Origin: Pseudoclavibacter helvolus
Lineage (GTDB): Bacteria > Actinomycetota > Actinomycetes > Actinomycetales > Microbacteriaceae
Assembly (NCBI RefSeq): GCF_014191305.1
Contig: NZ_JACHWJ010000005.1
Coordinates: forward strand, 62,001-126,000
Length of the DNA: 64,000 nucleotides
Reading direction: 5' to 3'
A program made the position numbers and the translations under genes. This document shows, one piece after another, positions 7,488 to 12,707 of this stretch (positions within the stretch are counted from its first letter, which is position 1; the number at the start of each line of letters is the position of its first letter). The notes below the pieces were generated by a model, which was not told the DNA's origin, made no database searches, and saw only the letters and a program-made list of their open reading frames with translations.

Positions 7488-9221
7488 TCAGTCGAAGATG
7501 CGGCGCAGGAGGTTGGTGTCGGCGAGGTCCACAAGCTCATCGCCCCGACCGGAGAGCACGGTGCGCAGCGCGTAGAGCGTGAACCCCTTGACCTGCTCGG
7601 CAGTGATGGTCGGCGGAATCGACAGCTCCTGCCGAGCGGTCACGACGTCGATGAGCGCCGGCCCGTCGTGCTCGAAGGCTGCGCGCAACGCGCCCTCAAG
7701 GTCGTTCGGATTCTCGACCCGCTGCCCGTGGATGCCCACGGCCTTCGCGACGTCGGCGAAGTTCGGGTTCTCGAGGTCCGTGCCGTAGTTGACGAAGCCG
7801 GCCGCCTTCATCTCGACCTCCACGAAGTTCAGGGAGGAGTTGTTGAACACGACGATCTTCACAGGGAGCTTGCTCTGCCTGAGCGTGAGCAGCTCGCCGA
7901 GGAGCATCGCCAGCCCGCCGTCGCCCGCGAGCGCGATCACCTGGCGCTCCGGGAACGCGGACTGCGCGCCGATGGCCTGTGGCAGGGCGTTGGCCATCGT
8001 GCCGTGGCTGAACGAGCCGATGAGCCTCCGCTGCCCGTTCATCTCGAGGTAGCGGGCGGCCCAGACGACTGGCGAGCCCACATCCGGGATGAACACCGCA
8101 TCCTGGGTCGCGAGTTCGCTCACGAGTCGTGCGACGTACTGCGGGTGGATGGGAGCGCGCCCGCGGTCGTTGTCCGCCAGCGAGTCCAGCTCCTTGCGTG
8201 CCTTCCGGTAGTGCTTCACGGAGGACTCGAGGTGCTTGCTGCTCTTGTTCTGCTCAAGCAGCGGGATGAGCGCGTCCAGCGTGTCCCCCACGTCGCCGAC
8301 CAGCCCGAGGTCGAGCGGCGTGCGCTTGCCGAGCTGCTCGCCGCGCAGGTCGACCTGGATGATCTTCGCCTTCGACGGGTAGAACTGCTGGTACGGGAAG
8401 TCGGTGCCGAGCATGAGGAGCGCATCGCAGTCTTCGATCGCCCGGTACCCCGACGAAAAGCCGAGCAGCCCCGTCATGCCGACGTCGTAGGGGTTGTCGT
8501 ATTCGATGAACTCCTTGCCGCGCAGCGCGTGCACGATGGGAGCCTGCAACGCCTCGGCCGCCGCGAGCAGCTGCGCGTGTGAGCCCTGTGTGCCGGCGCC
8601 GCCGAGGATCGTGACGTTCTTCGCCGAGTTGAGGATGCCGGCGGCCCTCGCGAGCTCGCTGTCGGCCGGGCGCACCACCGTCTTGGCGGACAGGATGGGC
8701 GCCGACTTGCGTCGCCCGGCGCTCTCCTTCAGGAAGATCTCGCCTGGGATGACAACAACCGCGACGCCGCGCTTCTCAACGGCTGCCCGCATGGCGATCT
8801 CGAGCACGCGAGGCAGCTGCTCCGGCACGCTGACCATCTCGCAGTACACGCTGCTCTCCCGGAACAGCTCCTGCGGGTGCGTCTCCTGGAAGTACCCGCT
8901 GCCGATCTCGGCCGACGGGATGTGCGCCGCGATCGCGAGCACGGGGACACGGCTGCGGTTGGCGTCGTAGAGCCCATTGATGAGGTGCAGGTTGCCTGGC
9001 CCGCAGCTGCCGGCGCACACCGCCAGCTCTCCCGTCAAGGCGGCGTCCGCGGAGGCCGCGAACGCCGCAGCCTCCTCGTGGCGCACGTGCGACCAGGCGA
9101 CGTCGCCGTTTCGGCGGATGGCGTCGGTGAATCCGTTGAGCGAGTCCCCGGGAAGCCCGTAGACCCGCTCAACTCCTGCGTCGTGGAGGATATCGACGAT
9201 CGTGTCAGCGACTGTAGTCAT
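7488..9221 (-). CDS. poxB: Pyruvate dehydrogenase (quinone) / pyruvate oxidase
   Basis: Thiamine-diphosphate and FAD enzyme that oxidatively decarboxylates pyruvate to acetate and passes electrons to the quinone pool at the membrane. The 577-residue product has the N-terminal pyrimidine-binding domain with the catalytic-type glutamate in HVRHEEAAAFA (about residue 50). A central FAD/Rossmann-like domain follows. The C-terminal diphosphate domain has the GDGGLAM to NNSSLNF metal-binding motif near residue 430. The ATG is preceded by AGAGGA. It is bounded by a hairpin downstream and stands alone. The same fold includes acetolactate synthase, but order and length match PoxB. Confidence 0.93.
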   Translation of the reverse strand: MTTVADTIVDILHDAGVERVYGLPGDSLNGFTDAIRRNGDVAWSHVRHEEAAAFAASADAALTGELAVCAGSCGPGNLHLINGLYDANRSRVPVLAIAAHIPSAEIGSGYFQETHPQELFRESSVYCEMVSVPEQLPRVLEIAMRAAVEKRGVAVVVIPGEIFLKESAGRRKSAPILSAKTVVRPADSELARAAGILNSAKNVTILGGAGTQGSHAQLLAAAEALQAPIVHALRGKEFIEYDNPYDVGMTGLLGFSSGYRAIEDCDALLMLGTDFPYQQFYPSKAKIIQVDLRGEQLGKRTPLDLGLVGDVGDTLDALIPLLEQNKSSKHLESSVKHYRKARKELDSLADNDRGRAPIHPQYVARLVSELATQDAVFIPDVGSPVVWAARYLEMNGQRRLIGSFSHGTMANALPQAIGAQSAFPERQVIALAGDGGLAMLLGELLTLRQSKLPVKIVVFNNSSLNFVEVEMKAAGFVNYGTDLENPNFADVAKAVGIHGQRVENPNDLEGALRAAFEHDGPALIDVVTARQELSIPPTITAEQVKGFTLYALRTVLSGRGDELVDLADTNLLRRIFD

Positions 9222-9301
9222 GGCGCGATCCTCTGCCTCGAACCGGTGAGCCAGCTGAGCAATCGGCCGCCTCTTACCGGCCGTGCGTGCTAGGGCGTCG
9301 A

Positions 9302-9706
9302 CTACGCCTGGCTGACCCGAACCATGTTGCCCGACGGGTCGCGGAATGCGGCGTCACGCACGCCCCAGAACTGGTCGGTCGGCTCCTGCAGCACCTCGAC
9401 TCCGCCCGTCGCCTGCACCTTCTCGAAGAGCGCGTCGAGGTCGCTCGTGCGGAAGAGGAGACCAGGCAACTCGCCCTTGGCGAGCATCGCCGAGAGCGTC
9501 TCGCCGTCTTCCTCGGAGCGCCCGGCCTTGGGATGCGAGAGCACGATCTCGAGCTCGGGCTGCTCTTCCGTAGACAGGGTGATCCAGCGGAAGCCCTCGT
9601 TGGGGACCTCGCTGCGCACCTCGAGGCCGAGGGCGTCTCGGTAGAACACGAGAGCCGCATCCGGATCGTCGGTGAACACGTGCACGTGGCTGAGTGAGAG
9701 TGTCAT
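9302..9706 (-). CDS. VOC-family (glyoxalase/bleomycin resistance fold) protein
   Basis: A 134-residue single-domain vicinal oxygen chelate protein starting MTLSLSHVHVFTDDPD, with the paired beta-alpha-beta modules and a C-terminal DPSGNMVRV segment. Substrate unknown. The ATG is preceded by GGAG only two bases away; an upstream GTG has no ribosome site. If the IS110 element just upstream is removed in silico, the start overlaps the stop of the araC-type gene by ATGA. The two were then a translationally coupled pair, and the gene is now cut off from its original promoter. Confidence 0.85.
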   Translation of the reverse strand: MTLSLSHVHVFTDDPDAALVFYRDALGLEVRSEVPNEGFRWITLSTEEQPELEIVLSHPKAGRSEEDGETLSAMLAKGELPGLLFRTSDLDALFEKVQATGGVEVLQEPTDQFWGVRDAAFRDPSGNMVRVSQA

Positions 9707-9759
9707 GGCTCCGATGCTAGGACCGGCCACCGACGTTGATGCTTATAGGGCCTCGTTTT

Positions 9760-9935
9760 GGTCTGACTCTGCCACCGACTGACTTCGTGTCTTTGCTTTG
9801 ATCCGTCGGCTGGGACGGGGCGCTTTGTGAGTGCGCCGACCAGGCGGACATGACCTCATAGGAGCCTGGTCGAAGAGGCCCCATCAACGTCCTGTCTGCC
9901 CGCCCGGTCGGCTGCCGATCCGATCAAGAAGGGCA
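9760..9935 (+). ncRNA. Putative IS110 bridge RNA (left-end non-coding RNA)
   Basis: IS110 elements of the IS621 type encode a bridge RNA in the left end, upstream of the recombinase, with a target loop 5' and a donor loop 3'. Here GCCACCGA (9771-9778) repeats the left target flank plus core (9726-9733), as a left target guide should. ATAGGA (9858-9863) repeats the right end of the element (11153-11158), as a left donor guide should. CATCAACGTC (9882-9891) is the exact reverse complement of the left end (9732-9741), as a right donor guide should be. No clear right target guide was found. The RNA ends are guesses. Confidence 0.6.
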
Positions 9936-9943
9936 GGACCATC

Positions 9944-11146
9944 ATGACAACAAGACTCGAGAAAATCTTCGCGGGTGTCGATACGCACGCGGACACGCAT
10001 CATGCCGCGGTGATCGATTCCAACGGGAAACAACTCGGTGATGCGCAGTTCCCGACCACACCGGCCGGCTACGCGGCGCTGGCCGCGTTCCTGACCGCCT
10101 TCGGGACGGTCGTCCGCGTCGGGGTCGAGGGGACCGGTTCCTACGGGGCTGGGCTGGCGCGTCATCTTGGGGAGGCTGGGTTCGTGGTCGCTGAGGTGTT
10201 GCGCCCGAATCGACAGCTCCGTCGAACGCGCGGGAAGTCCGACCCGTTGGATGCGTACGCCGCTGCCCGCACGGCGCTCGCCCAGGAGGAGCATGCGACA
10301 CCGAAAGCGGGGGCCGGGCAGGTCGAGGCGATCCGGTATCTGCTGGTCGCGCGTCGCAGCGCGGTCAAGGCGCGCACCGCCGCGATAGTCCAGATCAAGT
10401 CTCTCCTGGTCACGGCTCCGGACCTGATCCGGGAGCGTTACCGGTCGCTGGGCGACAAGGCACTGATCGCGGCGCTGGCCCGGTTGCGGCTCTCGACCGA
10501 TCCGTTACTCGCCGCGGTCGGGCAGGGCCTGCGATCGCTCGCGAGGCGTCACCAGCTGTTGGGCGAGGAGGTCAGCGACCTCGATCAAGCGCTGGCGGCG
10601 TTGACTGCGGCCGCGAACCCGGCTCTTGTCGCGGCGAAAGGCATCGGCACGATCACGGCTGCGCAGTTGTTGGTCACCGCGGGCGACAATCCGGACCGGC
10701 TCCGCAGCGAGGCCTCATTCGCGGCTCTCGCCGGGGTGAGCCCGATCCCCGCCTCGTCCGGCAAGACGAACCGGCACCGGTTGAATCGAGGCGGGGACCG
10801 GCAAGCGAACGCCGCGTTGCACCGGATCGCGTTGGTTCGTATGTCGTACGAGCCTCGCACGCGCGACTACGTCGCTCGTAAACGCGCGCTGGGGCACAGC
10901 AACAAGGAGATCATCCGTTGCTTGAAGCGAGCGATCGCGCGCGAGGTGTTCACCCTGCTCACCACGATCGTCGAGGTCCCAGTGACCGATGACCTTCGCC
11001 CGCTGCGACAGGCACGGAAACTGAGCCTCACGACCGTCGCGGAACACTTCAACGTCTGGCCCGCCACGATCTCGAAACTCGAGCGCGGCACGCACCGCGA
11101 TGACGACCTCGCGAACAGCTACCGCGAATGGCTCACCGCGGCTTGA
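9944..11146 (+). CDS. IS110-family transposase (DEDD serine recombinase) with C-terminal HTH
   Basis: A 400-residue recombinase of the IS110 family. The N-terminal RuvC-like DEDD domain shows Asp13 (GVDTHAD), Glu62 (VEGTGSYG), Asp100 and Asp103 (DPLDAYAAART). The C-terminal Tnp domain has AALAGVSPIPASSGK, with the catalytic-serine region at residues 271-272, and NRGGDRQAN. After it, about residues 350-400 read like an XRE-type helix-turn-helix (LRQARKLSLTTVAEHFNVW, then KLERG). That tail is not part of the minimal IS621 enzyme; I recall it from other actinobacterial copies. The frame is intact, so the element could be active given a functional guide RNA. Confidence 0.95.
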   Translation: MTTRLEKIFAGVDTHADTHHAAVIDSNGKQLGDAQFPTTPAGYAALAAFLTAFGTVVRVGVEGTGSYGAGLARHLGEAGFVVAEVLRPNRQLRRTRGKSDPLDAYAAARTALAQEEHATPKAGAGQVEAIRYLLVARRSAVKARTAAIVQIKSLLVTAPDLIRERYRSLGDKALIAALARLRLSTDPLLAAVGQGLRSLARRHQLLGEEVSDLDQALAALTAAANPALVAAKGIGTITAAQLLVTAGDNPDRLRSEASFAALAGVSPIPASSGKTNRHRLNRGGDRQANAALHRIALVRMSYEPRTRDYVARKRALGHSNKEIIRCLKRAIAREVFTLLTTIVEVPVTDDLRPLRQARKLSLTTVAEHFNVWPATISKLERGTHRDDDLANSYREWLTAA

Positions 11147-11640
11147 CAACCAATAGGAGCATCATTCACTTCTTGGAAACTGCTCGAAGCTTCAGCGTCG
11201 GAAGGTTCGGGGCTCAGCTCGCCTTTCTTTGCCCGTTCGTGGACTCGCCGAGGCCGACCCCAGATCTGCGAGGTGCAGCTCGGGATGACGATGCTTCCGC
11301 TGTGACCCCTCGCCTTGTAGGCGCTCGGCGACTCCCCCACGATCTCCGTGAAGCGACTGCTGAGCGACCCAAGGCTCGTGGCCCCAACCGCAGTGCACGC
11401 ATCCGTCACACTCACATCGCCCCTGCGCAGCAGCGCCTTCGCGCGTTCGATGCGCCTCGTCATGAGGTGCGCGTACGGGGTCTCGCCGTAGGCCTCCCGG
11501 AAGCGGCGGCTGAAATGGGCGGTCGACATGTGGGCCGCCTTCGCCATGGCAGGGACATCGAGCGGCCGCGCGTACTCGCGGTCGATGAAGTCCCGAGCGC
11601 GGCGGAGGTGACGCAGCTCGTCGAGGTCGGTCGAGGCCAT
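11119..11640 (-). CDS. AraC-family regulator, 3' end interrupted by IS110
   Basis: Short AraC-type regulator (MASTDLDELRHLRRARDFID) in which the two helix-turn-helix motifs make up most of the protein (AMAKAAHMSTAHFSRRFRE and TDACTAVGATSLGSLSSRF). There is no separate ligand domain. The frame runs into the IS element, so the last codons (after EVNDA) are replaced by an element-derived tail ending SHSR. With the element removed, the protein would end DARWPVLASEP and its TGA would overlap the VOC start. The DNA-binding part is intact and function may survive. The ATG has GGAG seven bases upstream. The gene is divergent from the ABC transporter operon at 11763. Confidence 0.85.
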   Translation of the reverse strand: MASTDLDELRHLRRARDFIDREYARPLDVPAMAKAAHMSTAHFSRRFREAYGETPYAHLMTRRIERAKALLRRGDVSVTDACTAVGATSLGSLSSRFTEIVGESPSAYKARGHSGSIVIPSCTSQIWGRPRRVHERAKKGELSPEPSDAEASSSFQEVNDAPIGCQAAVSHSR

Positions 11641-11762
11641 GTCTCCAGTATGCGCGGACGCCTTGCCCAAAACGCGGCCCGCCGCCGCATCCCCCGATCG
11701 GTGGATGCGAATCAACCGGTCGGCCCCTCCCCGGCGCGAACCGTCAGCCGTTGGATAGAAGC

Positions 11763-12707
11763 ATGAACACACCAGCCGCCATTGAGGTCACCGACCTCGT
11801 CAAGCGCTACGGAGACCGCGACGTCGTCGACGGGCTCTCCTTCGACGTGCGCCACGGCGAGACCTTCGCCCTGCTCGGACCGAACGGCGCCGGCAAGAGC
11901 ACCACGATCGAGATCCTCGAGGGCTTCCGCGCTGCTACGTCCGGCACAGCTCGCGTCCTCGGGCACGACCCGGCACACGGCGACGCCCAGTGGCGGGGAC
12001 GCATCGGCGTCGTCAGCCAGTCGAGCGCCGACATCGAACGCTATTCGGCGAGAGAGGTGCTGCGTCACTTCGCCAGCCTGTACCGGCACCCGCGTGACGT
12101 GGCCGAGACCATCGAGCGCTGCGGCATCGCACCGTTCGCGACGCAGCGCGTCGGATTCCTCTCCGGCGGCCAGAAGCGCCGAGTCGACGTGGCGCTCGGC
12201 ATCGTCGGCAACCCGGAGGTCCTCTTCCTCGACGAGCCCACGACGGGCTTCGACCCCAACGCACGCCGCGAGTTCTGGGGGCTCATCCAGCAGCTGAAGG
12301 GCGAGGGCATGACCATGGTGCTCACGACGCACTACCTCGACGAGGCCGAGCAACTCAGCGACCGAGCCGGAATCATCGCGGCAGGCAAGCTCGTGGAGAT
12401 CGGCGACATCACGACGATCGGCGGTCCGGCGTCGCGCACGCCCCGAGTGCGCTGGCAGGAACCGGATGGCCAGTGGCGCGAGGAGAAGACGGACGCGCCA
12501 GCTCAGCTCGTAGCCGCGCTCGCCAACCGGCTCGGCCCGGAGCCGGTCGGCCTCACCATCACGCGGCCATCACTCGAGGACGTGTACCTCGAGATCATCG
12601 GCGAGCATCCGAGCGCTGAGACCGACGGCGAGCCAGCTGCAAAGGCTGGCCGCGCCGACACCCATCACGCAGCACACGCTGCCGCATTCGCCGGAGGCTC
12701 GAAATGA
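11763..12707 (+). CDS. ABC transporter ATP-binding protein (DrrA type)
   Basis: A 314-residue ATPase of an ABC-2 exporter. It shows Walker A LLGPNGAGKSTT, signature LSGGQKRRV, Walker B VLFLDEPTTGFDP and a late H-loop (TTHYLDEAE). The long C-terminal region after residue 225 is typical of DrrA/CcmA-like exporter subunits. The ATG chosen gives MNTPAAIEV; a TTG four codons earlier is possible. Its stop overlaps the permease start by ATGA, and a histidine kinase and response regulator follow. The operon therefore resembles antibiotic or cell-wall-stress export modules with their own sensor. Confidence 0.93.
   Translation: MNTPAAIEVTDLVKRYGDRDVVDGLSFDVRHGETFALLGPNGAGKSTTIEILEGFRAATSGTARVLGHDPAHGDAQWRGRIGVVSQSSADIERYSAREVLRHFASLYRHPRDVAETIERCGIAPFATQRVGFLSGGQKRRVDVALGIVGNPEVLFLDEPTTGFDPNARREFWGLIQQLKGEGMTMVLTTHYLDEAEQLSDRAGIIAAGKLVEIGDITTIGGPASRTPRVRWQEPDGQWREEKTDAPAQLVAALANRLGPEPVGLTITRPSLEDVYLEIIGEHPSAETDGEPAAKAGRADTHHAAHAAAFAGGSK

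Follow-up and report, generated by a model that had tools for sequence, protein, structure and literature searches.

The window analysed here, the whole stretch of 64,000 nucleotides from Pseudoclavibacter helvolus, harbors on its forward strand an insertion element of 1429 bp at 9734..11162. Its limits were established from its copies and from empty sites, and run from the shared core base C at 9734 to T at 11162, the last base of the right end (RE); a second copy of the core base, recognized by means of the empty sites, follows at 11163. The element encodes a recombinase of 400 aa (9944..11146, forward strand), which matches PF01548 (E 1.7e-25) and PF02371 (E 1.7e-20), in agreement with the initial annotation of this DNA, which had assigned the element to IS110. 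The DEDD and Ser residues were assigned by alignment to IS621 and ISCro4, and D13, E62, D100, D103 and S271/S272 are invariant in 20 aligned proteins. The non-standard C-terminal tail that had also been proposed is present and HTH-like (residues 351-385), its similarity to HTH_31 staying under the Pfam cut-off. The non-coding ends are distributed as in the IS110 group, with a long left end (LE) of 210 bp and a short RE of 16 bp. The sequence TTGACA at 11143..11148 (forward strand) forms a -35-like box in the RE, overlaps the stop codon of the recombinase and could form a junction promoter in a circular form of the element, for which we predict the junction CCAATAGGAGCAT-C-GTTGATGC; the -10 candidates located 17-18 nt on in the LE are weak (TGATGC/GATGCT, by eye). 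A TTGAC-like stretch is also found in the right ends of the relatives compared.

Six copies of the element reside in its own genome: five are near-full (92-100% DNA identity), and the sixth is degenerate (54% protein identity), its bridge RNA being intact enough to be matched by the covariance model described below. The five near-full copies occupy sites that are all different, have the left junction CCACCGA in common and carry on the right side ATAGGA (ATAGAA in copy L004), followed by GCATCA in all of them. One could read these features as the initial annotation did, with a core GA, an element spanning 9732-11158 and a right target half-site GCATCA: four of the five near-full copies show GA at the two places (in L004 it is AGAA, which ends in A as well), and all five continue with GCATCA. 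The empty sites refute this reading. The joined flanks of all five near-full copies were searched against 149 genomes, and eight empty sites, representing three of the five copies, were read in four genomes of the same genus (one of these sites has CCGCCGA in place of CCACCGA). In all eight CA comes directly after GA and GCAT is missing; therefore GCAT belongs to the element, the right end lies four bases further, and the sole base common to both junctions is C (9734/11163) and not GA, which belongs to the left target. Additionally, a GCATC-like stretch follows ATAGGA in relatives with different left targets, and we give the version with a GA core practically no chance. Ends lying elsewhere in other copies had been named as grounds against the initial proposal; the other five copies have the same left end, and the right end is found four bases later. 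The right end proper, ATAGGAGCAT followed by the core C, occupies 11153..11163 on the forward strand, as read from the own copies, the empty sites and the junctions of relatives. The highest identities among named relatives (67-74%) belong to Leucobacter, Agromyces and one actinobacterial MAG; a close-kin family search of 299 genomes revealed no relative above 52% identity outside the own genome.

A search of positions 8500-12500 of the window against the 4227 families of Rfam gave nothing at E up to 1, therefore a covariance model was built in this analysis. An alignment of 30 elements reached from the left end beyond the donor loop, and 23 of these elements entered the model, the window element (L001), L021, L022, L023, L024, L066 and L077 being left out. 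The initial annotation had suggested a bridge RNA in the left end, to be checked with a covariance model, and the model made without the window element and its close kin bears this out: it finds 9748-9907 (forward strand) at 123.3 bits and E 5.7e-33, the next match in the 64 kb having E 0.2, and it recovers all six copies of the own genome. The predicted RNA is conserved and folds into a consensus structure with two internal loops, in which 21 of 31 pairs are changed on both sides. Paired cells amount to 94.1% compared to 34-46% when the partners are slid, and the covariation score of 0.514 (0.192 in shuffles) was reached by 0/500 shuffles. The structure came from the alignment; a single-sequence fold of 9742-9935 was not informative (z -1.31). 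Between the target guides lies a hairpin, TGACTTCGTGTC (9780..9791, forward strand), which is consensus helix 2 and has four of its six pairs changed on both sides.

The guides were investigated in a collection of 85 loci, namely the five near-full own copies and 80 relatives. Four loci without a donor-loop match, 18 without a left end at the set distance and, by hand, the misaligned L037 were dropped, leaving 62 elements. Thirty-six of the 62 have a right end that is preceded by TTGAC and no more than 400 bp away; these make up the right-end set, which leaves more distant right ends uncounted; the test of the left target guide (LTG) covers 61 elements, as L041 has too little flank. The tests of the LTG, of the right target guide (RTG) and of both handshake guides were made on features that had not been selected on. 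On the forward strand, the LTG GCCACCGAC (9771..9779) equals the left flank plus core and would pair with the bottom strand of 9726-9734. The guides of the 61 elements agree with their own left targets in 7.28 of 9 nt, compared to 5.09 in permuted pairs, and the observed value was reached in 0/500 permutations. The left donor guide (LDG) AUAGGAGC (9858..9865, forward strand) would pair with the bottom strand of 11153-11160, and is the same 8-mer as in the RE in 33/36 elements; it changes in step with the right end, which is ATAGGAGT in L064, L065 and L068 and ATAGGACC in L081. The right donor guide (RDG) CAUCAACG (9882..9889, forward strand) is complementary to the LE sequence CGTTGATG at 9734-9741 and co-varies with it through at least eight forms among relatives. 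Both agreements are partly circular, since the LE was located by its match to the RDG and the RE by a ATAGGAGC-like pattern.

These data support part of what had been noticed at first. The quoted strings are where they were said to be, GCCACCGA at 9726-9733 and 9771-9778, ATAGGA at 9858-9863 and 11153-11158, and CATCAACGTC at 9882-9891 as the exact reverse complement of 9732-9741. LTG, LDG and RDG have the same order and orientation as in IS621, and the guide matches exceed chance, as left target, right target and donor-loop handshake all beat permutation. The covariation of guides with flanks and ends, which had been put forward as a check, holds by permutation for LTG and flanks and in the partly circular manner described for LDG with RE and RDG with LE. 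The match of the left donor guide is longer than had been described, 8 nt (ATAGGAGC). The right target guide, for which no convincing candidate ending in TC had been seen, does exist as CUUUG at 9796..9800 (forward strand), according to the family permutation test, and does not end in TC. It lies on the 3' side of the target loop and is followed by AU, which would pair with the RE end; this accounts for the failure to see an RTG ending in TC. Agreement of RTG and right target is 4.06 of 6 compared to 2.90 in permuted pairs (0/5000; 31 distinct pairs) and amounts to 6-7/8 in L034, L043, L044, L045, L056, L066, L074 and L079, among others. Agreement with the right targets is only 2-3/8 in the window element and its copies: the UG which would pair with the core C 11163 and A 11164 (UG:CA) is constant, and the remainder is mismatched in most copies. 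Copy L004 (contig C3) has altered RTG bases and ATAGAAGC in the right end together with an unchanged LDG, and thus may be impaired.

The two loops contain further short guides, each of which corresponds to the DNA of the other side. In the target loop, AU (9801..9802, forward strand) would pair with the RE end AT at 11161-11162; it matches the element's own RE end in 35/36 cases and the own left target in 0/36. As this guide varies little, its permutation test was reached in 2/5000; L024, L077 and L088 have AC together with a right end GT. In the donor loop, UC (9890..9891, forward strand) would pair with the left target GA at 9732-9733, which is the reason why GA had first been seen in the RDG. 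Both of its bases match the left target end in 50/62 elements and the own RE end in 0/36, and the permuted pairs reached this agreement in 0/5000. Crosswise pairing of this sort is described for the handshake guides of IS621 (PMC11208158).

Only the base C is left in common between donor and target. In 26/36 elements donor and target have different bases after C, a count that includes several copies of one element and is thus not made of independent cases. At this position the RTG agrees with the target base in 34/36 elements and the RDG with the donor base in 36/36, though that match had served to choose the LE. Without exception, the five near-full own copies carry G at the left junction and A at the right one, A being also the base of the empty sites. 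The simplest reading is that strand exchange would occur at the single shared C. IS621 has a shared CT core and is cut after its second base, position 9 (PMC11208158), which favours a reading in which the shared base is part of a dinucleotide core here as well, the second base being determined by repair once strands have been exchanged. We regard this as unlikely, because donor and target differ at position 9 in most of the (not independent) elements just counted, and random repair would have mixed the junctions of the own copies, which are uniform. A one-base core may already be visible in ISAar29, one of six bridge RNAs inspected by hand according to the legend of Extended Data Fig. 10 of PMC11208160.

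Membership of the element in the IS110 group is clear. The recombinase combines a DEDD RuvC-like domain with a Transposase_20 domain that has the catalytic Ser, the left end contains a bridge RNA with two internal loops, LTG and LDG correspond to bottom strands and RTG and RDG to top strands (the RTG weakly so in the window element), and the handshake guides are complementary to the non-cognate DNA. The core dinucleotide that donor and target have in common in IS621 and its orthologues is reduced to one base, C. However, the wording of PMC11208160 for the IS110 family is 'a short core sequence', and therefore a one-base core marks a variant and not an exclusion from the family. The variant features of the element are this core, the tail and the promoter-motif target. 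The IS1111 group was rejected, since the RNA sits in the left end and the inverted repeat GCATC/GATGC has 5 bp; the subterminal inverted repeats of IS1111 elements have 7-17 bp (PMC11208160).

What the initial annotation missed is the identity of the target. The chromosomal target of the window element reads backwards as TGTCGGTG-N8-TAnnnT, which is the RecA-NDp/PafBC DNA-damage promoter motif: the consensus of these promoters is given as tTGTCRgtg - 8 nt - TannnT (PMC5656591), and PafB engages a PafBC-specific -26 motif (PMC11804915). According to the empty sites, the insertion split the motif TGTCGGTG, so that GTCGGTG stands at 9728..9734 on the reverse strand and the first T is now at 11164, beyond the right end. 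The -10 hexamer TAGCAT is located 8 nt after the motif (9714..9719, reverse strand), and the gene of the struck promoter extends over 9305..9706 on the same strand, encoding 134 aa from an ATG at 9704-9706; it is VOC-like by eye and gave no NCBIfam match. The perfect motif TGTCRGTG-N8-TAnnnT is found at five of the six own copies, the exception being L002 with GAGGGT as -10 box. The start codon lies 26-27 nt from the core at five of the six own sites (63 nt in L004); the sixth copy is counted by its ATG, irrespective of reading frame. Two of the seven close-kin sites have the perfect motif (L023, L076), and four have near variants with the start at 26-28 that deviate in motif, -10 box or spacing (L021, L022, L058, L084). 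The Agromyces element L024, a close relative, has a different guide, and the promoter motif is absent there.

The perfect motif occurs 26 times unoccupied in the own genome (sites TGTCRGTGN8TANNNT of genome G000, L242-L267), compared to 0 for a reversed control pattern, which together with the 5 occupied sites gives about 30 perfect sites. At 15 of the 26 free sites an open reading frame begins 28-31 nt away, counted from the motif's first base, and at two there is none within 140 nt. Ten downstream genes, hand-picked from the 26, were scanned, and six matched: RadA, PcrA (a fragment, under the cut-off), DnaX, SbcD, ClpX and FtsH, with E up to 1e-30. The free sites are likely to mark a DNA-damage regulon of this organism, and two tandem WYL genes in its genome resemble PafB/PafC, the names being given by eye. 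Three near-identical motif copies (L249, L250, L256) precede similar genes, one of which was scanned and had no NCBIfam match. Ten genes behind occupied sites of the clade were scanned as well, L058 being left out. Only three of the ten bear repair or replication names, exonuclease III (L005), DNA polymerase III epsilon (L021) and delta' (L076); SerS (L084) and YajQ (L023) were also found, the aldo/keto-reductase-like (L003) and serine-hydrolase-like (L004) matches are both under cut-offs, and the genes at L001, L002 and L022 gave no match.

The exact sequence CCACCGACA is free at 97 sites of the own genome, a few near-identical repeats included, thus the motif is far from saturated. TAnnnT stands at the right place in 19 of these 97 sites and in five of the six occupied ones (p 0.0024; 4/5 and p 0.009 before the sixth copy was added). 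An open frame starts at 25-29 nt from 30 of the free sites, and the start codon is in place at 5/6 occupied sites (p 0.017; p 0.041 with the first five copies only). This excess at occupied sites may reflect selection against insertions in genes. One could go further and argue that the promoter bias as a whole results from such selection and is not coded in the guides, insertions in genes being lost and those just outside surviving; as 39 of the 97 free CCACCGACA sites are promoter-like on at least one of the two features, many sites of the motif lie in promoters anyway. However, selection gives no reason why TGTCRGTG should be written in the very guides of the window element, the degenerate sixth copy, L021, L022 and L023, and we consider this explanation possible but rather doubtful. 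Choice of the motif by the guides and trimming of the rest by selection can both be true.

It is far less probable that the HTH tail and not the RNA recognizes the promoter, or PafBC or RNA polymerase at the promoter. The HTH_31-like stretch at 351-385 would suit such a role, and the -10 box and the start codon, which the guide match does not reach, are found at a nearly fixed distance. This distance, though, follows from promoter architecture itself, and as the guides spell the motif its recognition would need nothing else. We rank targeting by the tail low because the targets are different in L024, L044 and L054, relatives that carry a tail of the same type. Altogether we hold it very probable that the element belongs to the IS110 group, uses a bridge RNA and a one-base core, and is programmed to the PafBC promoter motif. 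The weak agreement of its RTG, the many free CCACCGACA sites, the few repair or replication names behind occupied sites and the deviating L024 speak against this.

Several observations were made on the relatives in passing. In six of the 80 (L026, L042, L048, L060, L063, L087) the bridge-RNA gene is cut inside the LDG, just before AGGAGC, by another IS110 element in the opposite orientation, both junctions of which are seen only in L048 (1284 bp, core CT). The guides of this invader, LTG GCAAGCTCCT and RTG CTCATAG/CTGATAG, match the donor-guide region of the host at the five loci read (all but L042), which suggests one bridge-RNA element aimed at the guide of another. A wider search of 396 genomes yielded relatives of the invader in 10 genomes, at 45-48% identity only, and no report joining IS110 with hyperparasitism was found in the open-licence literature searched. 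In twelve Arthrobacter-type relatives (L029, L030, L031, L036, L039, L049, L050, L053, L057, L061, L067, L080) the next right-end-like sequence is found 0.6-1.9 kb behind the stop codon of the recombinase, separated from it by open reading frames, such as one of 330 aa in L080; this stretch is possibly cargo, or in some of them a neighbour's end. ISAar29, which from its name we take to be of Arthrobacter origin, may be close to the Arthrobacter relatives of the element. In L069 the stretch past the stop holds another IS110 gene. Arthrobacter-type elements are also found on the contigs of L057 and L063 (WNZI01000079/80), which bear the title Vibrio cholerae strain 35D and appear to be contaminants of that assembly. 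By eye, the targets of another clade (L044, L045, L051 and L069) adjoin a sequence like the end of a tRNA T-arm (GTTCGAGTCCC..), and the left flanks of L024 and L096 contain repeats such as ATCGGTGACAGTTCTGC, which resemble the ends of another insertion sequence.

The ends, the empty sites, the copies, the agreement of guides with DNA, the covariation of the RNA and the promoter context were all read from DNA, and for transcription, pairing, strand exchange and recombination, and the effect on the struck promoter we lean on the analogy with IS621. By this analogy the element would be excised as a circle in which its ends abut (..ATAGGAGCAT-C-GTTGATG..), and its left end would be transcribed into the bridge RNA. 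The donor loop would read the circle junction, the LDG with ATAGGAGC and the RDG with CGTTGATG, and the target loop would read the chromosomal site, the LTG with GCCACCGAC and the RTG with CA. Strand exchange by the recombinase would take place at the only base pair in common, C, and the incoming strands would then meet the handshake guides, AU pairing with the RE end and UC with the left-target end. On the opposite strand the target guides spell TGTCGGTG(G), the PafBC-dependent DNA-damage promoter motif, and the element would thus spread into a dispersed set of such promoters. The cut would fall at the outer edge of the motif, so that seven of its eight bases, the -10 box and the start codon stay in place. 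Therein we see a tentative idea, with the arguments nearly balanced: a lineage of bridge-RNA elements with a one-base core may home into DNA-damage promoters, the outer edge of which would serve as a low-cost safe harbour. Perhaps its spread is even coupled to damage, as PafBC and RNA polymerase would open exactly these sites during damage.

From the element one can predict the complete code by which an actinobacterial bridge recombinase recognizes its DNA, both handshake guides being read crosswise across natural relatives. With a core of one base pair, the programmed use of bridge recombinases would be less constrained than by a dinucleotide, and guides aimed at the promoter motif of a transcription factor would tie an RNA-guided parasite to the DNA-damage response. 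The open-licence literature searched contained no report joining PafBC with an insertion sequence, or IS110 with DNA damage and a promoter motif.

Among known systems, IS621 (PMC11208160, PMC11208158) is alike in its DEDD/Ser recombinase, its left-end bridge RNA with two loops carrying LTG/RTG and LDG/RDG, its crosswise handshake guides, the -35 box in the RE and a dispersed family of targets, which are REP elements in that case (PMC11208160). Contrastingly, IS621 has a shared CT core, and here one base, C, is shared and the next one is set separately for donor and target; the HTH-like tail of the recombinase and the promoter-motif target also belong to the element described here. The seekRNA elements ISEc21 and ISEc11 (PMC11187229) are similar in that an RNA from a non-coding end guides the choice of target and no target duplication arises, and differ in their targets and hosts; the same paper counts one copy of the duplicated bases within the element, and considers many listed ends to be wrong. 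Finally, the PafBC/RecA-NDp promoters (PMC5656591, PMC11804915) have the same sequence and the same spacing to the -10 box, but what is a regulatory site there would be an insertion target here.
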